DNA from: a virus
Direction: 5' to 3' (one strand)
Length of the DNA: 44,102 bases
IMG/VR virus record: IMGVR_UViG_3300042542_005175
Coordinates: 1-44,102 of that record
This document shows, piece by piece, positions 2,070 to 31,162 of this stretch; the stretch's first letter is position 1, and every line of letters begins with the position of its first letter. The notes beneath the pieces are model-generated. The model was not told where the DNA came from, did not search any database, and was given only the letters and a program-made list of their open reading frames with translations. Made by a program: the position numbers and the translations under genes.

Positions 2070-3169
2070 TGAACACACCACTGCTGACAGATTCTCAGGC
2101 CTCATCGGCCTTGATCAAGGTTAATGCGTTGAACAACACATTGGCCCGTCATGCCGCAAAGGGTATCAATGCGCATGATTCTGAGGGTGTCGTGCAGTAC
2201 CTGTTCACTGATTCTGGTGGTAATAGCCTGAGCCCACTCAGTCTTGTTTTGGGTGGTGCTCAGGCTAACACAGGTACGCCACAAAAAGTGTATCTGCCCA
2301 TAGCTCAAAATCCGCAGTCAATTCCCACAAAATCTGACTTGCTGGTTAAAATCTACAACCTGTATGATAACCAGTACTTGTTTAGCAAGCCAATACCTGG
2401 ACGGATCTATTACCATATCTCCAGTGGTGGACAACCTGGTGGTAATAGATCAGGTGGTGATGGCCCAGGTTATCACATAAATCCTGCGGCCACATTCGTC
2501 AGTTTGATTCAGCAATTTGTGGCGTCTGAGGTTAACTTTCCAAATTTTAATTTTGGAGGTCCTTACATAGCTGAAATAACTGGAAACATAGTTGTGGATG
2601 TGGCTCAGAACTATACACTGAGCCTCTACTCAGATGATGCATCCTGGTTGTTTATCGATGGCAACCTTGTTGTGGACAACTCTTGGGCTGATGGGTGGGG
2701 TGGATGGGAACATGATATTGGGCCACACACTCAGAATGGAGTGGTGTCCACCACAAAAACAGTCTTCCTAACAGCTGGGTCTCATTCAATAAGAATTGTC
2801 AACCAGCAGGATGGAGTTGTGACAGGTTTGCTTTTTGCTTTGCCAGTGGGCATTCAGTATGAAACTCTGGTCCCAACGGGTCTACAGCAGTTTGATACAT
2901 ACACCACTTCATCTAATCTCTTTAATTTCAACGGTGTACTCTTTACAAACCAAGATGAGTTAAATGCCGGTTTGGCATACATAATACTGAGTGTGGAGAA
3001 CAGCAGCCTGGCTGAAGATGTAAAGACTGCGATTATTACTCAACTGAGGATACAACCCTACGGAGACATTGATGCCACCTATTCAGTGGTGGTCAATTCA
3101 GTCACGTATAGGTTTAGAGTCAGCATTGTTTCCTCATCTGGGTCGATTACAGTCACCTACACACCATGA
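2069..3169 (+). CDS. PA14-domain virion/adhesin-type protein
   Basis: This 366-residue protein carries a PA14-like beta-barrel at roughly residues 140-265. Recognisable pieces are the central YTLSLYSDDASWLFIDG, the following NLVVDN and the closing TVFLTAGSHSIRIVNQQDG, which is the classic PA14 pattern (sheet, Asp-Asp ligand pair, internal 'G..L..N', and a final 'L.aG.y.i.i'). PA14 domains of adhesins and glycosidases bind glycans, with the Asp pair coordinating calcium. The N-terminal region and the C-terminal region (LYNTY-free, beta-rich) are not recognised. It lies in a plus-strand run with other beta-rich virion-type genes, so a receptor-binding or tail-fibre-associated role is likely but inferred. 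Confidence 0.65.
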   Translation: MNTPLLTDSQASSALIKVNALNNTLARHAAKGINAHDSEGVVQYLFTDSGGNSLSPLSLVLGGAQANTGTPQKVYLPIAQNPQSIPTKSDLLVKIYNLYDNQYLFSKPIPGRIYYHISSGGQPGGNRSGGDGPGYHINPAATFVSLIQQFVASEVNFPNFNFGGPYIAEITGNIVVDVAQNYTLSLYSDDASWLFIDGNLVVDNSWADGWGGWEHDIGPHTQNGVVSTTKTVFLTAGSHSIRIVNQQDGVVTGLLFALPVGIQYETLVPTGLQQFDTYTTSSNLFNFNGVLFTNQDELNAGLAYIILSVENSSLAEDVKTAIITQLRIQPYGDIDATYSVVVNSVTYRFRVSIVSSSGSITVTYTP

Positions 3170-3414
3170 ATTCCAATATCATAACCTCTTTTGAGACTTT
3201 AACTCAAGAGGAGAGGATAAATCAAATCAAGTCTTTGATAGAGGCCCACGCTGAGAAAACTCACGGTCAAACCCACTTAGGCCACGTGATCACTAATCCA
3301 GGTGTGGCATACAAAGATAGTGCGGGTCAAAATTGGCCTGGCTCCAATGGAAGAGTCAGCATCGTAAAGGTTAACGGCGTGCTGTACTACGTGCCATCAC
3401 AGATAATCCCATGA
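3166..3414 (+). CDS. small virion-type protein, duplicate of the next gene's N-terminal module
   Basis: An 82-residue protein that overlaps the preceding gene by 4 bases (ATGA) and the next gene by 4. Its second half, with HLGHVITNPG, then a short acidic loop, then VNGVLYYVPSQIIP, resembles residues about 38-88 of the downstream protein (SHLNVTVVNE, then QNGVIYKIPASLSP). It is therefore a free-standing copy of a small beta module that is also fused to a larger neighbour. No known family is recognised. An accessory or structural role beside the PA14 protein is inferred from position only. Confidence 0.65.
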   Translation: MNSNIITSFETLTQEERINQIKSLIEAHAEKTHGQTHLGHVITNPGVAYKDSAGQNWPGSNGRVSIVKVNGVLYYVPSQIIP

Positions 3415-4520
3415 ACTCTTCAACACTAGTAACAGAAAAAGCCACAGCTAGTCTTAGTGCTAGTATTGACAAGCTCATTGAGAATGTCAAGAACCACGAG
3501 GCTCTGACCATTGACATATCTCACTTGAATGTTACTGTAGTGAATGAGTCTGTCTATGACAACTCACCCACTCTGTTTGATGACTCGCCCAACTCACGCT
3601 ATGGAAATAAAGTGGGTACAGTAACTCTGCAAGTGCGTCAGAACGGTGTCATCTACAAGATACCAGCTAGTCTATCACCATATGGCGTTCCACGAGTTCC
3701 AGTAATAGGTGTACAGCTACAAACTCAAGCCTTTAGTTTGGCTCCAGAGGGTCAGCCACAACCCAATGTGGGTGTATCATGCCAGTTCACAGCCACTCAA
3801 TCCACGGTAGTAACTTGGCAAGTGTATCTTAGCACTGGTTGGACTGACATGAATTTTGCCTTCCTGTATTCAGGTGGTAATCAGTATTCTTCATTTCCTT
3901 CGGGTGGTCATACATTTCAAGCGTACCAAGCCACATTCACTTACACAAATGCTGATGGTACATCAGGCAGCACGTCATTGACTTCAGGCAATGTGCAGTA
4001 TGCCACTCCAAACTACTCACAATCTACCACACAGACTGCCGCATTGGTACTATCATTCCTTTCTGGAGACACTACAGACGCCATCACCCTGGGTAAAATA
4101 AGGCTGAAAATTGATAACACAGCCATTGGTGGTGGAATACGTTACTCAGGGGAATGCACTTGCATATTAGAGGACCAAACTGGATCTTGGGTTGTGTCAG
4201 CCCTAGACCATCCGTGGACGCCACTTGAATTGAACAGGCTATTCCGCTTCAAGGTGTGGTCTTACACCCACAATCCAGAGGAGACAGCCATCTACCGTGG
4301 CAAACTTGGAAAAGAGTTGGTTCAAAGAATGCTGAACCAATCAGCTGATTTTTCTGGGCTAAAAGAAAAAGTCATTGCTATGCTTAATGAAAGCATGACA
4401 ATGACTCATAGATTCCAGACCTATAGAGCTCTGATAAAAGAGTGCTTCAAGAAGTATTGGCCTGATTGTCCTGATGCCTATGTTCGCAAGGAACTAGGCC
4501 ACGACAACACCAATGTATGA
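3411..4520 (+). CDS. hypothetical beta-rich virion-type protein with helical C-terminus
   Basis: A 369-residue protein. Residues about 38-88 repeat the module of the upstream 82-residue gene (ends NGVIYKIPASLSPYG). The middle third is Ser/Thr/Gln-rich and beta-like, as in tail-fibre and decoration proteins. The last 100 residues change character to a charged helical domain (for example RMLNQSADFSGLKEKVIAML and HRFQTYRALIKECFKKYWPD). The final 27 bases overlap the convergent collagen-like gene, so the transcripts from both strands meet head-on here with no terminator visible between them. Function is not recognised; the fusion of a virion-like body and a helical end is unusual. Confidence 0.6.
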   Translation: MNSSTLVTEKATASLSASIDKLIENVKNHEALTIDISHLNVTVVNESVYDNSPTLFDDSPNSRYGNKVGTVTLQVRQNGVIYKIPASLSPYGVPRVPVIGVQLQTQAFSLAPEGQPQPNVGVSCQFTATQSTVVTWQVYLSTGWTDMNFAFLYSGGNQYSSFPSGGHTFQAYQATFTYTNADGTSGSTSLTSGNVQYATPNYSQSTTQTAALVLSFLSGDTTDAITLGKIRLKIDNTAIGGGIRYSGECTCILEDQTGSWVVSALDHPWTPLELNRLFRFKVWSYTHNPEETAIYRGKLGKELVQRMLNQSADFSGLKEKVIAMLNESMTMTHRFQTYRALIKECFKKYWPDCPDAYVRKELGHDNTNV

Positions 4521-5831
4521 GATACTGACGCGTGCATCAGAGGTATAGCCTGATGGCAGCGTAATGGTGATATTTGAAAAAGGTGATCCTGCAATCACCT
4601 TGTAAGTTTGTCCACTGGACTGGAGGACGTCGTCCACTGTCACAGCAAAGAATGTGTTTGAAGTTGTAAATGGAGATGGCAGAGTCAGCACCAAATCGCC
4701 ACTTCTCATCATCACTCTAAATTGACCTTGGGCTATCATAAACGTATTGGCACCAATGGTTATCGTCGTTGTGGCCACAGTCAGAGTGCTAGCACCATTG
4801 ACTAGTGCGGCATAACTTCCTGACGCAGACGTTGTGGTGCCTGAATAGTTGGCCCCAATATTTACAGTGCCAGTAGTGATGGTATTTGAACTTGCTGAGG
4901 CACCCGCAGCGCCACTGATGCCAGCTGGAGCGATTTGCTGACCGCTTGCAATGTTAGTTGCAGCGGCGGCATTTCCAGCGTATCCAGTATTAGTCAGAAC
5001 TACAGATGTAGCACCACCAATGCTGTAGACTGTGAAGTAACCGGCTGTTTCAACGTATACCACTTGACCAACAGCTATCCAAGCTGTGGTATCAACGGTT
5101 ACTGTCACATTGGCTAAAGGTGACGGCATTACAAACAAGGCTGAAGTGGTTGAGTAGGCATTTCCACCCACTGGGCCACTGAAACCACTAAAGCCAGAGG
5201 CTCCTCTAGTTCCACTGACACCACTGAAACCAGAAGTGCCAGAGTAGCCAGACTCACCGGAACCAGAGCCGCCAGACGATCCAACAGTGGGAACAAGCAG
5301 TGATCCTTGAACCTCGGCCACTGGTCTCATGGTGATCTGAACATCACCACAAACAGCAGCTGACGAGCTGCTGATGTTGGTCACCTTGAGGACAAACTCA
5401 CCCTCACCATAGAATGTTGTTTGACCACTGACCTCTGAGAGTGTCGACGTGATTGATGTGCCAGTGGTTGAACCATATGTGGATGACCACAGCACCTCCA
5501 GTCTGACGGTATTTGATGGTGTGGATGCCACAACCACATTGAGTATTCTGGCCTCAAAGCCAGATGGTATGCGGTAGTTTAGAATTGTGGCTGACTGAGA
5601 GGCACCCAGGGATATGCGTGGAACAGGCAGGTCAATGATCTGTTCCTTGTTGTTGACTTCTGAAATGATCTGGTTGATAACGGCCGCAAGGACATTATCA
5701 CGCTCTGCCAGGTTACGAGTGGCAAACGAGATTGTCGCAGCCGAATTAGCGTCAGTGGCCGTAAGATGTCTTACATCACCGTTGGCATAATTTAGACCGC
5801 CAGCTTTAGGCAGTATCAGTGGAGTAATCAT
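4494..5831 (-). CDS. collagen-like tail-fibre/appendage protein
   Basis: A 445-residue protein. The N-terminal 175 residues are a globular part (ALGASQSATILNYRIPSG region), probably the virion anchor. Near residue 185 begins a Gly-X-Y-like tract, GYSGTSGFSGVSGTRGASG, then FSGFSGPVGG, the short collagen-like triple helix common in phage fibres. It is followed by a beta module (VTVTVDTTAWIAVGQVVYVE and IGGATSVVLTNTGYAGNAAA) that recurs behind collagen-like tracts in phage tail proteins, and a C-terminal beta domain. The product is expected to be a trimer on the virion surface. It is the distal gene of a minus-strand series portal, gp25-like, HU-like, fibre, each overlapping the next by 4 bases. 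Confidence 0.75.
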   Translation of the reverse strand: MITPLILPKAGGLNYANGDVRHLTATDANSAATISFATRNLAERDNVLAAVINQIISEVNNKEQIIDLPVPRISLGASQSATILNYRIPSGFEARILNVVVASTPSNTVRLEVLWSSTYGSTTGTSITSTLSEVSGQTTFYGEGEFVLKVTNISSSSAAVCGDVQITMRPVAEVQGSLLVPTVGSSGGSGSGESGYSGTSGFSGVSGTRGASGFSGFSGPVGGNAYSTTSALFVMPSPLANVTVTVDTTAWIAVGQVVYVETAGYFTVYSIGGATSVVLTNTGYAGNAAAATNIASGQQIAPAGISGAAGASASSNTITTGTVNIGANYSGTTTSASGSYAALVNGASTLTVATTTITIGANTFMIAQGQFRVMMRSGDLVLTLPSPFTTSNTFFAVTVDDVLQSSGQTYKVIAGSPFSNITITLPSGYTSDARVSISYIGVVVA

Positions 5832-6160
5832 GGGTTGTAATTGTATTCAACTCTGTCAGCGAATGACTTATAGAGCTTTAGGTGAAATCTCACTCTTTCG
5901 TCCAAGAAAAAGTATCGTTGTACTTTCTCTACTCCTTTCTTGGACCGCTTAAAATTCATTGATACTGACTTACCCTTAATTATCTTGGGTGTAATTGAAC
6001 CCACATGGCCCAGACTCACCTTGTTGAGATTGACCACAGCCTCCTCAACAATGCTTACCAAACAGTCGTGAACCTTGTTGGCATCAACGTAGGACAATTC
6101 ACAGTCAGTCATGAACCGACGAATTATCTTAGACTTGGTAATTGACTTCTGTTTGGTCAT
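5828..6160 (-). CDS. HU/IHF-like DNA-binding protein (candidate)
   Basis: This 110-residue protein matches the layout of HU/IHF proteins in its first 65 residues: a short N-terminal helix (KSKIIRRFM), the second helix (SYVDANKVHDCLVSIVEEAV), then NLNKVSLGHVGSITPKI, which corresponds to the 'GekV.L.gFGtF.v' strand of HU. The DNA-arm that usually follows is replaced by a basic segment (KGKSVSMNFKRSKKGVEKV). HU forms dimers that bend DNA and may help condense the genome or act in gene control. Here it is coupled by overlap between the gp25-like and fibre genes, a late-gene position. The similarity is clear in pattern but weak in detail, and a baseplate function is an alternative. Confidence 0.5.
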   Translation of the reverse strand: MTKQKSITKSKIIRRFMTDCELSYVDANKVHDCLVSIVEEAVVNLNKVSLGHVGSITPKIIKGKSVSMNFKRSKKGVEKVQRYFFLDERVRFHLKLYKSFADRVEYNYNP

Positions 6161-19790: not shown

Positions 19791-20402
19791 ATGTTCTTGA
19801 AAGGTATGAACGTTACTTTCGCCTTTTCAGGTCCCTGTAATGCTGGAAAGACTACACTGATGCACAAGATCAAGGACCGGTTTGGCAGCAGGGTCCACAT
19901 TGTGGGTGAGTGCATCAGAGACAAGATCACATCAATTGATGTGGTCAGAAACTCGGCACAAAACTACTTCAGACTGCAGCAGAAGGTAGTGATGGAGAAG
20001 ATTCGCCTTGAGGATGAAGCTCAGCATGGCAGTGGCAAGTTGATCCTAGTGGACAGAAGTTTGGCAGACTCACTTTTCTACACGACTTTCTACATTGATA
20101 TCAAGGCTCTCACTGAGACTCAAAAGGTTGAGTATGTCAACTTCGTAAAGACAGTCACTGAGACAGCCAAGGCCAAGAAAAGGTATGACATCGTGTTCAT
20201 GATGCAACCACTGCCCATCACGATCAAAGACCCCATGAGGCCGAATGATCTGATGGTCACTCAGACCATTGAGCACCAGCTCATTGAAACTTTGAACATT
20301 GGTTTGTTTACAGGATTGTCCAAGTTGACTAAGGTAGACGTACGCAAGGAAGAAGACCAAATCCTCAGTGCCTGCGAGGAAGCCTTGTCAGAAATTGCAT
20401 GA
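19791..20402 (+). CDS. P-loop nucleotide kinase-like ATPase (AAA_28/NadR-type)
   Basis: I start this at the ATG at 19791 (203 residues; 19779 and 19806 are also possible) because the P-loop should lie close to the N-terminus; a longer frame reaching back to 19503 lies over the divergent gene. MNVTFAFSGPCNAGKTTL holds the Walker A loop (GPCNAGKTT), HIVGECIRDKI the switch-like segment and LILVDRSLADSLFY the Walker B/DRS part, as in the NadR/AAA_28 nucleoside kinase-like group. It overlaps the dCMP-hydroxymethylase-like gene by 4 bases, so a role in phosphorylating the modified nucleotide (5-hm-dCMP kinase function, as T4 gp1 does) is attractive. The fold is secure; that substrate is inferred. 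Confidence 0.7.
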   Translation: MFLKGMNVTFAFSGPCNAGKTTLMHKIKDRFGSRVHIVGECIRDKITSIDVVRNSAQNYFRLQQKVVMEKIRLEDEAQHGSGKLILVDRSLADSLFYTTFYIDIKALTETQKVEYVNFVKTVTETAKAKKRYDIVFMMQPLPITIKDPMRPNDLMVTQTIEHQLIETLNIGLFTGLSKLTKVDVRKEEDQILSACEEALSEIA

Positions 20403-21187
20403 ACCTCGTCGTAGACAACGTACCACAAGCATTCTCCCAACTAAACAGACACCTCAGTGAGTCAGGCTCCGAGGTGTCTGGATATTTGGAGGCCATTAAC
20501 GCTAGGATTGTAATCAACAACCCTCAGCAGAGGGTGGCCGCTGTTCGTAGTGACAACGGCTGCTTTGTCCCCTATATGGGACTTCAGTGGGCATGGTATG
20601 CCTATACACACCAAGACACGGCCCTGAAAGAATACTACCCAGAAGCCTGGCAGAGAGCCACTAAAGGTGATGTTAACTCAAACTACGGTCAGTATGTTTG
20701 GGCTGAATCACAATTCCACAACTGCTTCAAGTTGTTGCGTGATGATCCTAACACACGCAGAGCGGTGATCATGTTCAACCGAAAGGAGGTGGCCATGTCA
20801 TCTACAAATGACCATATCTGCACAACGTCTCTTCAGTTTTTGGCTCGTGATGGTCAACTTCACCTGATAACCACTATGCGTTCCAACGAATTGCACTTTG
20901 GATTTCGCACAGATGTGGTGTTCTTCACAATGCTTCAAGAGATTATGGCCACAATTCTTGGCCTTAAACTTGGTACTTATTGCCACAATGTTGGGTCACT
21001 CCATGTTAAGAAAGACAAGATCACACACGAACATGTCACATTGATTGACTGGCCCAAGTTTTGTTTCGCAGAGCTGCCACACCTCATTGAACTCAGACAG
21101 TTCTTTAACCCAAATCCAAAATTTACCAAAAGCACGTTTGAACTGACCAACCTTTTACAAGACAATCTCAGATTTTTTAAGTCATGA
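20399..21187 (+). CDS. dCMP hydroxymethylase-like enzyme (thymidylate synthase fold)
   Basis: A 262-residue thymidylate synthase homologue. NYGQYVW (95-101) is the folate/dUMP loop, DHICTTSLQF (138-147) carries catalytic Cys141, MRSNELHFGF (160-169) the phosphate-binding Arg-Ser, and LHVKKD the late conserved His. The residue that reads the base is Asn in thymidylate synthase (RSxDxxLGxPFN). Here the aligned segment is RSNELHFGFRTD, placing Asp172 at that position. T4 dCMP hydroxymethylase uses the same Asn-to-Asp change to accept cytosine. It would transfer a hydroxymethyl from methylene-THF to dCMP. It overlaps both neighbours (kinase, carbamoyltransferase) by 4 bases. The family is certain, cytosine preference is a strong inference. 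Confidence 0.8.
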   Translation: MNLVVDNVPQAFSQLNRHLSESGSEVSGYLEAINARIVINNPQQRVAAVRSDNGCFVPYMGLQWAWYAYTHQDTALKEYYPEAWQRATKGDVNSNYGQYVWAESQFHNCFKLLRDDPNTRRAVIMFNRKEVAMSSTNDHICTTSLQFLARDGQLHLITTMRSNELHFGFRTDVVFFTMLQEIMATILGLKLGTYCHNVGSLHVKKDKITHEHVTLIDWPKFCFAELPHLIELRQFFNPNPKFTKSTFELTNLLQDNLRFFKS

Positions 21188-22917
21188 ATCTTCTGCTTAC
21201 ACTGGGCCACAATTCATCTGCAATCCTGACTGATAATGACCAGCGAATCACTGCTGGTTATGAAGAGGAGCGCCTTAATCGAGTCAAGAGCTCCTCTCAA
21301 TTTCCAAAGCTTTCGATCGAGGAATGTTTCAAGAATACGTCAGGCCATGAACACGATAGGGGCTACCTTTATGTGTCCCACTGGTTTGACGATTTTGACT
21401 TTCATCGCAATGGCTTCAGCGACAAACACTGGGATCCATCCCAAGTTAAGGCCATCTGTGATTCACGCAATCTGGAACTGGTGACTTTAACATCTCAGTT
21501 CACCCATCATGATGCCCATGCTTGGGCTGCACGAGCTTTCTTTGAGGCGCACAGCCTTCCTTTGGATCCCATCCACATCTGCGTGGCTGATGGTTTTGGC
21601 AACAAGGAGGAAGTCTTCTCTGTCTACAAATGGACTCCTAAGAAGGAGAGCATGCAGTTGGTCCATCGAGTGTATGGCTACGAAAACTCGTTGGGCTTGC
21701 TTTACCAATATGCTACATCATACTGTGGCATGAAGGAAAACCAGGATGAGTACAAATTCCTGGGATATGAGACTTGGGTGGATGATATCCTGACTAACAA
21801 GGAGATCGCTGATCTTCAAAATGAAGCATCGGCCTGGGCATCAAAGTATCGTTCAGCTCAAAGTCCTCAAAGCACCAATAAGTCATACATCAATGTGGAT
21901 CGACTGATCCAAGTTAAGAATGACCTGTGGGCCAAGTTTGATGTGGTGATTGAGACAACCACAGGCAAGAGCAAAGCAAGCTTTAGCAAGAGTGACTTGC
22001 GTAAGATCATTGGCCACTTCGTCCAAAGTGTGATTGAAGCCTACTACACTGATGTGATCGAGGAATTCTCGATTGACAACATCATCGTCACTGGTGGTCT
22101 GCACTACAACGTTAAGCTGAACAACCACATCTTGGCCAGAATTCCTGGTGAGTTCTGCGCCACTCCTTTGGCTGGTGATCAAGGTGCAGCCATTGGTTTG
22201 ATGCGTTATCACGAGGGATCAGTCCTTGGTCTTGACAGTTTACTTTGGGGACACAGAGACCTCTCAATACCAAACACTCTTGTGGCCAATGGCCATGAGT
22301 TCAAGCCGGGTCACTTCTACTTCAACAACAAGCAGAGCTATGTTGATTTTGTGGTTTCTCAGCTGAAACTCAATAAAATTGTGAACACAGTGACTGGACC
22401 CATGGAATTTGGTCCTAGGGCCCTGTGCAACACAACGACATTGGCTCTGCCCACAGAGAAGAATGTGGCCACAATCAACTCACTGAATGGCCGTGACACT
22501 GTCATGCCCATGGCGCCAGTGATGTTGAAGCAATACGCCCACGAGTTTTTCAGCCATCAGGACATCAGTCGAGTGGCTGGTTCACTTGAGTACATGATTC
22601 TTACCTTGGATTACCATACCACCGTGGATGTCAACCGATTCCGGGGTGTTATGCATCCCTATCCAAAGTTTGGCCGAAAGTACGGTTACTCTGGGCGTCC
22701 TCAGTTGATTGAAGTCAACAACATTCAACCGATCTCCAACATCTTGCGTGGAATGTACCCACAGCATCCAGCACTGATCAACACATCGTTGAATGTTCAC
22801 GGTGTGCCGATTGTCTTCTCAGCCCAAGACGCCATCAATGACATGGCTTTCAACTTGGATGAGGCTCGTGATCAAGGACTGGAACAACCCATCCTTGTTA
22901 TTGGAAACTTCAAATGA
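21184..22917 (+). CDS. O-carbamoyltransferase (NodU/TobZ family)
   Basis: A complete 577-residue protein with both domains. The N-terminal Kae1-like domain has LGHNSSAIL (7-15), EEERLNRVK (27-35), THHDAHAW (107-114) with H108 and H112 as metal ligands, VADGFGN (134-140) with D136, and PLAGDQGAAIGL with a further Asp. The C-terminal domain has GPMEFGPRALCNTTTLA and ALINTSLNVHGVPIV, which form the carbamoyl-adenylate and acceptor site. The family moves carbamoyl from carbamoyl phosphate through carbamoyl-AMP to a hydroxyl group. Directly behind a dCMP hydroxymethylase-like gene, the likely acceptor is the 5-hydroxymethyl group of cytosine, in nucleotide or DNA. Enzyme class is very secure; acceptor is inferred. 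Confidence 0.9.
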   Translation: MNLLLTLGHNSSAILTDNDQRITAGYEEERLNRVKSSSQFPKLSIEECFKNTSGHEHDRGYLYVSHWFDDFDFHRNGFSDKHWDPSQVKAICDSRNLELVTLTSQFTHHDAHAWAARAFFEAHSLPLDPIHICVADGFGNKEEVFSVYKWTPKKESMQLVHRVYGYENSLGLLYQYATSYCGMKENQDEYKFLGYETWVDDILTNKEIADLQNEASAWASKYRSAQSPQSTNKSYINVDRLIQVKNDLWAKFDVVIETTTGKSKASFSKSDLRKIIGHFVQSVIEAYYTDVIEEFSIDNIIVTGGLHYNVKLNNHILARIPGEFCATPLAGDQGAAIGLMRYHEGSVLGLDSLLWGHRDLSIPNTLVANGHEFKPGHFYFNNKQSYVDFVVSQLKLNKIVNTVTGPMEFGPRALCNTTTLALPTEKNVATINSLNGRDTVMPMAPVMLKQYAHEFFSHQDISRVAGSLEYMILTLDYHTTVDVNRFRGVMHPYPKFGRKYGYSGRPQLIEVNNIQPISNILRGMYPQHPALINTSLNVHGVPIVFSAQDAINDMAFNLDEARDQGLEQPILVIGNFK

Positions 22918-23147
22918 TCATTCTAGAAGTCCAACAGTCGCTGCAAGTGGAAACGCCCAAGGGGCGTGGTCGCGTGTGGCTAGTGACAGATTATGGCTGT
23001 GAGATTGAAAAGCTATTCACGGTCATTCTAGATGAATCTGGCGAGATTTGGGAGTTCACCAATAAGGATGTCAGAGCCACGTCGAACACAACGATGGGCA
23101 GAAAATCTTGTTTACAGTCAAAACCAAGTAAAGTAGAAGAAGCTTGA
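22914..23147 (+). CDS. hypothetical small protein (77 residues)
   Basis: A 77-residue protein overlapping the carbamoyltransferase stop by 4 bases, so very likely co-translated. It looks like a small beta domain (GRGRVWLVTDYGCEIEKLF, TVILDESGEIWEFTNKDVRA), with a basic tail. No family is recognised. Its coupling to the modification genes makes it a candidate accessory factor. TTTACA at 23111-23116 inside its 3' end may be the -35 of a promoter for the next gene. Confidence 0.6.
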   Translation: MIILEVQQSLQVETPKGRGRVWLVTDYGCEIEKLFTVILDESGEIWEFTNKDVRATSNTTMGRKSCLQSKPSKVEEA

Positions 23148-29640: not shown

Positions 29641-29922
29641 ATGTTCTCACTAAATAGACTACGCAAGGAAGCTGAAAATCTGGACCCGGATGATGGAATT
29701 AAGTTGTCATCTGGGTCTGAGATCTCCATAATCTGTGAAGCAGGCACCAGAGTTGATGTTCCAAGAGACCTTGCTAAAAAGGTGTTTGGCAATGTGGAGA
29801 ATCTTACAAAACTGCGTGAGTGTTTTTCAGGCTCTGAGAGCCTTGAGTTGCATGACGTGCGTGTCTCTGATGAGGTCTGGGTTCTGATCGAAGAGATCTT
29901 CGCGATGGTCGACGAGATATGA
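29641..29922 (+). CDS. hypothetical small protein (93 residues)
   Basis: I start this at the ATG at 29641 (MFSLNRLRKEAEN) and not at an upstream TTG, which would overlap the divergent gene. The 93-residue acidic protein has a central beta part (IKLSSGSEISIICEAGTRVD, VPRDLAKKVFG) and a C-terminal helix (SDEVWVLIEEIFAMVDEI). It overlaps the endonuclease-like gene by 4 bases and so is probably co-translated with it. Not recognised. Confidence 0.6.
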   Translation: MFSLNRLRKEAENLDPDDGIKLSSGSEISIICEAGTRVDVPRDLAKKVFGNVENLTKLRECFSGSESLELHDVRVSDEVWVLIEEIFAMVDEI

Positions 29923-30377
29923 TTTACAAAGGAATGCCGAATGTCTGCTGCCGTTGTAAAAAATTAAAGGCAGAAAATCTTGGACAGCATAGACCAGGTT
30001 ACAGGTACAACACCCACGTATTCACATGTTTTGAGTGTCTTTCAAAGCCAAGGGTTGATAGACTCCATCGTAGAAACAACGAGACTCCTCCTGAGAAGGA
30101 GGTCAGAATGTGGCTTCAGCAGAACCGTGTGGAAGCTGATGCTGAATTCAAACTGGGCAGCTTCATCTATGACTTTGCCATACCCAAGTTAGGGTTACTC
30201 ATTGAGTTGGACTCCAAGAGATACCATTCAAACAAGAGACACCGAATTCGTGATGGCGCTAAGGACAAGAATGCTGCTGATCAAGGCTGGACTTTGAAAC
30301 GAGTTCGGATCGGTCCTCACATGGTCCTTGACGTTGAGAGAGCCATCATCGAGCAAAAATCAACAATTCGAGAATAA
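29919..30377 (+). CDS. Vsr/DUF559-like endonuclease with N-terminal zinc ribbon
   Basis: A 152-residue protein of two parts. Residues 10-40 hold CCRCKK and FTCFECL, two CxxC pairs that make a zinc ribbon. Residues 55-135 match the restriction-endonuclease-like DUF559/Vsr core: ETPPEKEVRMWLQQNRVEAD, then FIYDFAIPKLGLLIELDSKR with D85, E96 and D98 as the likely catalytic acids, a His (YH) and KNAADQGWTLKRVRIG, the 'a...Gw.vlRvr' closing strand. These enzymes nick or cut DNA at mismatches or specific sites, and similar proteins are often free-standing homing-type nucleases in phages. It may be selfish, or may attack host DNA lacking the phage modification. Confidence 0.7.
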   Translation: MIYKGMPNVCCRCKKLKAENLGQHRPGYRYNTHVFTCFECLSKPRVDRLHRRNNETPPEKEVRMWLQQNRVEADAEFKLGSFIYDFAIPKLGLLIELDSKRYHSNKRHRIRDGAKDKNAADQGWTLKRVRIGPHMVLDVERAIIEQKSTIRE

Positions 30378-30418: not shown

Positions 30419-31162
30419 ATGTGCGCTATTATTGGCTGGAAAGGTAAGATTGGCAAGGGACTTCTCCGTGAGTTTTTTAGACGCGCGGAGGCCTCAGGCC
30501 CCATGTCCACCGGTCTCATGACCATTGATGACGTGGGAAAATACAAAGGTGGAGGTGAGCCTACGCTTGATCTCTGGAAGAAAGCTATCACAGCTTCTCA
30601 AGCCTTGAGAAACCACAACCACAGGCTTGATCGTCAGTCGACCCACTCCATGGGGATTGGTCACACACGCTATGCAACTCATGGACGTATCTGTGATGAG
30701 AATGCCCACCCATTCTCAGATGGTGGTGCGCATTTTGTGCATAATGGAGTGATCAGCAACTATCGTCAAATCAAGTCTGATGCAATTGTGGATTCTCAGT
30801 GTCTTGGACCTCTCATCCACGCACGTAATATCGCACCTGCTTGGGGATCTGTTGGTCTGGCTTGGTTTGAAAAAATCAATGGCCAGTGGAAGATGTTCGT
30901 GTACAGGCACCAACAAAGCTTGATGGTTGCACAGGGAATGGTGGTTGGAGACTGCGGAACACTGACGACCGCAGTTCTGGTCGCATCACGGTCTCACCAC
31001 TTTCCTAAAAATCACATCCACAACATGACCACACTCGAGCTGCAAGAGGGTGTGGCCTATGAGGTGACCAATGATGGCATTGTTGAAGCTTGGCGTAACT
31101 CAAGTAAAGCCCAGACATTCGTCCGTGAAACCCATAAGAATGGGTGCTACATCGGTGGTTAA
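30419..31162 (+). CDS. stand-alone class II glutamine amidotransferase
   Basis: A 247-residue Ntn-hydrolase glutaminase domain. Cys2 right after the initiator Met (MCAIIGW) is the catalytic nucleophile after Met removal. GHTRYATHG (81-89), NAHPF (95-99), FVHNGVISNY (106-115) and DSQ (125-127) are the glutamine- and oxyanion-binding segments of the GlmS/PurF type. There is no synthase domain attached, so the released ammonia must be used by another protein or by an unknown partner. Such free-standing domains occur in phages that build modified nucleotides, and a link to the modification cassette is possible but unproven. It has its own promoter. Confidence 0.85.
   Translation: MCAIIGWKGKIGKGLLREFFRRAEASGPMSTGLMTIDDVGKYKGGGEPTLDLWKKAITASQALRNHNHRLDRQSTHSMGIGHTRYATHGRICDENAHPFSDGGAHFVHNGVISNYRQIKSDAIVDSQCLGPLIHARNIAPAWGSVGLAWFEKINGQWKMFVYRHQQSLMVAQGMVVGDCGTLTTAVLVASRSHHFPKNHIHNMTTLELQEGVAYEVTNDGIVEAWRNSSKAQTFVRETHKNGCYIGG

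Follow-up and report, generated by a model that had tools for sequence, protein, structure and literature searches.

Which product do three overlapping phage genes for a nucleotide kinase, a thymidylate synthase (TS)-fold protein and an O-carbamoyltransferase (CTase) make together, and can they make it alone? The genes lie in a 44,102-nt virus fragment (IMG/VR record IMGVR_UViG_3300042542_005175; this whole stretch is called the window below). The original prediction proposed a T4-like three-step pathway in which the TS-fold protein makes 5-hydroxymethyl-dCMP, the kinase stands in for T4 gp1 and the CTase caps the base, giving 5-carbamoyloxymethylcytosine (5cmC). Open reading frame (ORF) calls and Pfam and PHROG matches confirmed the coordinates, 4-base overlaps and domain assignments of the three genes, which run kinase-TS-CTase on the + strand and overlap at 20399-20402 and 21184-21187. 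With reasonable though far from complete confidence, we read the cassette as a module for O-carbamoylation of 5-hydroxymethylcytosine (5hmC) in a large tailed phage whose portal is of the T4 type, supplied with hydroxymethyl-dCMP mainly by an enzyme encoded elsewhere. Judged from sequence comparisons, 5cmC is very probably made by this module or with its help, and it would be the base found in virion DNA.

The carbamoyltransferase belongs to a 5hmC-modifying clade

Phage CTases linked to thymidylate synthases have been described in cytosine-modified metagenomic contigs, and one CTase printed in that work converted 5hmC to 5cmC in vitro, with DNA, RNA and (d)NTPs all serving as substrates (Yang et al., eLife 2021, 10:e70021, PMC8670742). 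The assayed enzyme requires carbamoyl phosphate, ATP and 5-hydroxymethyldeoxycytidine (5hmdC), and it accepts 5-hydroxymethyl-dCTP (hmdCTP) and single-stranded DNA but not 5-methyl-dCTP or 5-hydroxymethyl-dUTP (PMC8670742). Residues at the positions of TobZ W408, G421 and R423 distinguish CTases of modified DNA from others (PMC8670742).

The window CTase is intact, with both domains of the family present (Carbam_trans_N, PF02543, 2.3e-17; Carbam_trans_C, PF16861, 1.2e-23), and it matches PHROG 1601, Nol-like carbamoyltransferase (3.2e-62). An HHDAH motif in its N-terminal domain is presumably the metal site. Over its full length the protein is 36% identical to the assayed enzyme. After TobZ numbering was checked (chain numbering is offset by 6), the three signature positions were found to be T402, C415 and T417 in the window CTase and I, C and T in the assayed enzyme, compared to W or another residue, G and R in the outgroups. 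The same positions separate it from the TobZ, NovN and GdmN O-carbamoyltransferases, which have W (of the W408 type), G421 and R423, while domain architecture and the predicted carbamoyl-AMP chemistry are shared with them. When a tree was built with outgroups from bacteria, archaea and marine phages/cyanophages, one clade with 100/100 support held the window CTase, the assayed enzyme and almost every phage CTase linked to a TS; a smaller tree also joined the first two. Because the window CTase falls in one clade with the enzyme of Yang et al., the chemistry inferred for it is already published: the modification and the enzyme class have been known since 2021, and the window CTase is a further member. 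The product guessed in the original prediction, 5cmC, thus stood up, on the strength of clade placement and shared signature residues.

Genomic linkage follows the same signature. Among 105 loci with enough flanking sequence, with related loci counted as independent, which makes the Fisher p-values descriptive only, a cytosine-type TS was linked in 49 of the 50 with Thr at TobZ 423, versus 2 of the 55 without Thr, both of which have Arg. One locus, L255, departs from the split seen in the tree, being TS-linked yet outside the clade; its CTase (L255 4313-7872) has a CNRS motif, is linked to a canonical cytosine-type TS and is possibly an independent recruitment. A 168-kb relative (L017, contig IMGVR_UViG_3300031992_000018) encodes a complete carbamoyl-phosphate synthetase large subunit of 1073 aa directly upstream of its 5hmC-type CTase (2727-5948, + strand), which fits carbamoyl phosphate as the donor. 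No carbamoyl-phosphate synthetase gene was found beside the cassette in the window.

The TS-fold protein has a cytosine-type pocket and lacks the catalytic glutamate

The second protein of the cassette matches Thymidylat_synt (PF00303, 1.3e-13), and its PDB relatives by sequence are MilA (2.4e-21) and T4 dCMP hydroxymethylase (dCH; 6.5e-19). An AlphaFold2 (AF2) model with a mean predicted local distance difference test (pLDDT) score of 92.5 was matched by Foldseek to MilA, T4 dCH and AfhB. Active-site positions were assigned from an alignment anchored by the WY and NSNYG motifs, and are given below in Escherichia coli TS (Ec) numbering. Asp at Ec177, equivalent to T4 Asp179, determines cytosine specificity (PMC8670742, PMC6400193), and the window TS has this Asp as well as Thr at Ec147. 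The "cytosine-type base pocket" of the original prediction was therefore seen correctly; overlooked was that the catalytic Glu (Ec58) is Gln. This Glu, Glu60 in T4 dCH, is described as highly conserved and as shared by all members of the TS, CMP hydroxymethylase (CH) and dCH families (PMC6400193).

The E58Q change is accompanied by D169E in all five distinct kinase-TS-CTase contigs (window/L001, L003, L005, L016 and L078/L245), and no other TS protein in the comparison has the pair. Other folate-site residues (W80, Y94 and G173) are kept, and retention of W80 and G173 sets the window TS apart from other copies that lack the Glu. In the TS tree, the window copy groups close to canonical enzymes of the T4 gp42 lineage (90/80), apart from the other Glu-less copies. 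The Glu-less copies as a whole are spread over separate clades, which suggests that loss of the Glu, or the partnership, arose more than once.

MilA, the CMP 5-hydroxymethylase of mildiomycin synthesis, is the closest solved structure to the window TS in both sequence and fold. It keeps its glutamate (Glu68) and has Lys133 and Ala176, residues of CMP preference, where the window TS has Arg and Ser (Ec126 and Ec167), as do dCMP and dUMP enzymes, so dCMP rather than CMP is expected as the substrate. Since the nucleotide-binding residues and the residue that attacks C6 are kept, the cassette TS probably still binds dCMP or hydroxymethyl-dCMP. Because a defining catalytic residue is absent, it should not be annotated as a dCMP hydroxymethylase, even if it may still work like one; the best reading is a paralog of the cytosine type, in which Gln replaces the catalytic Glu and Glu replaces Asp169, and which is not the main hydroxymethylase.

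Three other assignments were considered and rejected. A CMP (RNA) hydroxymethylase lacks support, as the CMP determinants of MilA are absent. A pseudogene is contradicted by the open frame, by a pN that lies well under pS and by the fixation of the active-site changes. A role in the dUMP/thymidine pathway does not agree with the cytosine-type Asp177 and Thr147, and relatives have a separate ThyA.

Related phages encode a second, canonical hydroxymethylase

In a 230-kb relative with the same cassette (contig G010), three TS genes are present: ThyA, the cassette copy and, at 188 kb beside a ribonucleotide reductase, a gene for a canonical dCMP hydroxymethylase. With this gene present in the relative and the catalytic Glu missing from the cassette copy, the idea that the cassette TS is the dCMP hydroxymethylase of a T4-like pathway was not upheld.

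Across the 51 TS-linked CTase loci, 23 have a TS lacking the Glu. A canonical copy lies within the fetched flank in 17 of these 23, and the remaining six comprise five window-type loci, including L245 on contig G010, and L222. Far-off canonical copies were located in G010 and in the 179-kb contig of L222, such that Glu-less and canonical TS occur together in 19/19 loci with enough sequence. That a Glu-less TS recurs beside the CTase in phages that also have a normal enzyme suggests that it acts as a partner or carries out an additional step.

A short (about 190-230 aa), very divergent TS paralog with Lys at Ec58 and Glu at Ec173 was seen at L008-L013, L018 and L036, where it is encoded downstream of the CTase, before the canonical hydroxymethylase. 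At L009, L012, L013 and L018, a different small P-loop kinase lies close to it.

The kinase is linked to the Glu-less TS

The first protein of the cassette matches Pfam AAA_28 (6.9e-14) and, below the cut-off, dNK (1.2e-4). Searching the PDB with its sequence returned no useful match, so fold comparison was needed. Top Foldseek matches to the AF2 model (pLDDT 86.6) were human dCK, Drosophila dNK, the AbmG cytidine kinase, NadR and thymidylate kinases, and on this model the protein is a P-loop kinase of the deoxynucleoside kinase/thymidylate kinase (dNK/TMPK) fold. Invariant across 14-15 homologs (the alignment excludes L006, an out-of-frame row) are GxxxxGKT, E40, R43 and a DRSxxDS motif. A profile search of the loci with T4 gp1 found no relative. 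Casting the kinase as a gp1 counterpart is thus reasonable insofar as its fold is nucleos(t)ide-kinase-like, but it has no sequence similarity to gp1. Its substrate would be hydroxymethyl-dCMP, the nucleotide for which such a pathway evidently needs a kinase.

Within the TS-linked set, 16 of the 23 loci that have a Glu-less TS also have the kinase, versus 1 of the 28 that lack such a TS; conversely, 16 of the 17 kinase loci with full flanks have a Glu-less TS. In a collection of annotated phages, relatives of the kinase were found only in Bacteroides phages, which also carry a CTase and two TS genes. In one cultured example, Bacteroides phage BF503P1, the gene order is CTase, kinase, Glu-less TS, canonical TS.

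Cassette layout and conservation

The features of the cassette are collected in Table 1. The kinase-TS-CTase order recurs in other contigs, with identities to the window of 93/60/78% (kinase/TS/CTase) in L005 and about 35/37/48% in L016, and is also seen in the L078 phage contig. In measurable pairs, dN/dS of the kinase and CTase is 0.05-0.10; synonymous sites of the TS are saturated, and its pN/pS is about 0.31-0.34. The recurring order and low ratios show that these genes are under purifying selection and are no chance frames. Directly downstream, a 77-aa ORF (22914-23147) gave no Pfam or PHROG match; its counterpart in the L005 contig is 91% identical, and it is a probable fourth gene of the operon.

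Table 1. Features of the kinase-TS-CTase cassette, in window coordinates
Feature	Position	Strand	Basis or remark
P-loop nucleos(t)ide kinase, 203 aa, ATG at 19791, stop at 20402	19791..20402	+	Pfam AAA_28, fold
Walker A / P-loop SGPCNAGKTT of kinase	19827..19856	+	invariant G14, G19, K20, T21
TS-fold paralog of dCMP hydroxymethylase, 262 aa, altered active site	20399..21187	+	PF00303, structure matches
Gln63 at T4 Glu60 / E. coli TS Glu58 (catalytic)	20585..20587	+	alignment
Cys141, catalytic (Ec C146, T4 C148), retained	20819..20821	+	alignment
Glu164 at Ec Asp169 / T4 Asp171	20888..20890	+	alignment
Asp172 at Ec177 / T4 Asp179, cytosine-specificity residue, retained	20912..20914	+	alignment
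O-carbamoyltransferase, 577 aa, 5-hydroxymethylcytosine carbamoyltransferase clade	21184..22917	+	PF02543 + PF16861, tree
HHDAH motif, CTase N-terminal domain	21505..21519	+	HHxxH in nearly all clade members
TGPMEFGPRALCNTT signature: Cys415 and Thr417 at TobZ G421/R423; Thr402 (TobZ W408) just upstream	22393..22437	+	
77-aa ORF, 4-base overlap with CTase stop	22914..23147	+	no family

Proposed pathway and alternatives

In the pathway we propose, 5-hydroxymethyl-dCMP would come from a canonical dCMP hydroxymethylase whose gene lies at another place in the phage genome. This enzyme is present by sequence in the 230-kb relative, and we infer its presence for the window phage, which is represented by a 44-kb fragment. 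Going by fold and linkage, the cassette kinase would then raise the modified monophosphate towards the triphosphate. The CTase would form carbamoyl-AMP from carbamoyl phosphate and ATP and transfer the carbamoyl group onto the 5-CH2-OH of hmdCTP or of DNA to give 5cmC, as was demonstrated in vitro for a member of its clade by Yang et al. and would apply here by extension. The order of hydroxymethyl-dCMP, kinase and cap follows the logic of T4 gp42, gp1 and beta-glucosyltransferase, and the cassette TS shares the fold and the Asp179 equivalent of gp42; the differences are the predicted carbamoyl cap, a kinase unrelated to gp1 by sequence and the change of Glu60 to Gln. Protection from restriction or Cas nucleases is a plausible function by analogy with T4.

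The role of the cassette TS in this scheme is a guess, the most economical being a partner subunit or a substrate handler for the kinase and CTase. A bolder version, which we regard as unlikely, casts the altered TS as a new kind of CTase partner, catalytic or structural. Using the kept Cys and Asp, without the folate-activating Glu, it would act on cytosine nucleotides that are already hydroxymethylated or carbamoylated, with 5cmC thereby being an intermediate or being channelled through a TS-kinase-CTase complex. To our knowledge, such an added step is part of no described DNA hypermodification pathway.

Several observations weigh against the proposed pathway. The window, a 99%-identical 48-kb contig and a 93.6-kb relative yielded no canonical hydroxymethylase; the latter two hold only ThyA and the cassette TS. 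All three are fragments, and no family B DNA polymerase turned up in the two contigs either. With W80, Y94, D143 and G173 kept, the folate site of the window TS looks largely intact, unlike that of other Glu-less copies, and the Glu to Gln change need not abolish activity. One locus (L033), whose flank is too short to count, combines the kinase with just a canonical TS. Two Photorhabdus chromosomal CTases without a TS nest in the 5hmC clade on a long branch, so clade membership by itself leaves the acceptor unfixed. They belong to a group of Photorhabdus loci (L147-L151) with the CTase motif GPRAL[LM]SNS and no TS nearby, two of which are in the tree.

If the cassette were self-contained, as originally predicted, its own TS would be a working dCMP hydroxymethylase that tolerates Gln, perhaps with D169E compensating, and the kinase and CTase would supply the gp1 and capping steps. 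We consider this improbable. In its favour, the window TS retains Cys, Asp177, Thr147, Ser167, both Arg, W80, Y94 and G173, it branches close to T4 gp42, and no canonical copy was found in 93.6 kb of a close relative. Against it, the missing Glu is described as conserved throughout the TS, CH and dCH families (PMC6400193), the 230-kb relative has its canonical enzyme in the ribonucleotide reductase block, and conservation is lower in the TS than in the kinase and CTase (60-66% versus 78-93%). The altered TS could instead perform other chemistry, either through a Cys-C6 adduct on hydroxymethyl-dCMP or on a carbamoylated nucleotide, with carbamate as the leaving group, or by direct C5 hydroxylation, so that the final base would not be 5cmC. 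Glu-less copies that keep Cys and Asp177 beside the CTase in several clades would agree with this, and the published proof of 5cmC was obtained in vitro with an enzyme from a metagenomic contig. There is also a precedent in AfhB, a flavin-dependent dCMP hydroxylase of phage HY126 (PDB 9iqc, 9iqu), which like the window TS is a TS-fold, dCMP-binding phage enzyme. However, AfhB has the Glu and lacks equivalents of W80, Y94 and G173, the reverse of the window TS, and the assayed CTase yielded 5cmC alone, making this reading doubtful, and more so than a self-contained cassette. A sugar or surface polymer as acceptor, as for NodU-type enzymes, with the TS and kinase linkage being incidental, appears very improbable. 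The CTase superfamily acts mostly on sugars and small molecules, marine phage and cyanophage CTases without TS linkage exist, and a GT9 glycosyltransferase is encoded within the window; set against this are the signature, the clade, the near-perfect linkage to cytosine-type TS and the activity of a clade member on 5hmdC nucleotides and DNA.

Relation to the described enzymes

The window cassette resembles that of Yang et al. (PMC8670742) in its two CTase domains, the kind of signature, a linked TS in a phage contig and the 100/100 clade, and differs in that its TS is altered and that it includes a dNK/TMPK-fold kinase of its own. The assayed CTase belongs to the Xp15/Effie branch. In the members retrieved from this branch, the sole TS near the CTase is a canonical one, accompanied by a dCMP deaminase and, in Acinetobacter phage Effie, PRA-PH; neither a dCMP deaminase nor a PRA-PH gene was found next to the cassette of the window. 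Open-licence literature yielded no account of the linked kinase or of a second, Glu-less TS. These results assign a carbamate on 5hmC, a DNA cap that is proven but has received little study, to a defined and widespread phage gene set of 51 TS-linked loci. Because the loci include cultured phages of Bacteroides, Acinetobacter and Xanthomonas, the modification could be sought in virion DNA of existing cultures. The comparison also exposes a recurrent feature, a Glu-less hydroxymethylase paralog kept beside the CTase in several lineages that have the normal enzyme as well, which points to a missing partner or step.

Other genes of the window and its relatives

Elsewhere, the window encodes a T4-type portal (PF07230), SbcD/SbcC-like (gp47/gp46-type) proteins, and tail and baseplate genes. 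A class II glutamine amidotransferase domain protein (GATase_6; 30419-31162, + strand) is 82% conserved in the 93.6-kb relative, which also has more glycosyltransferase-like frames in addition to the glycosyltransferase family 9-like protein encoded at 298-1431 on the - strand of the window. A small endonuclease-like protein (29919-30377, + strand; weak match to MTES_1575/DUF559) is perhaps a homing endonuclease. By eye, three HNH/homing endonuclease-like frames were also recognized near or beside the cassette of the 230-kb relative (L143 2711-3379, 5385-5999 and 11092-11805, - strand).

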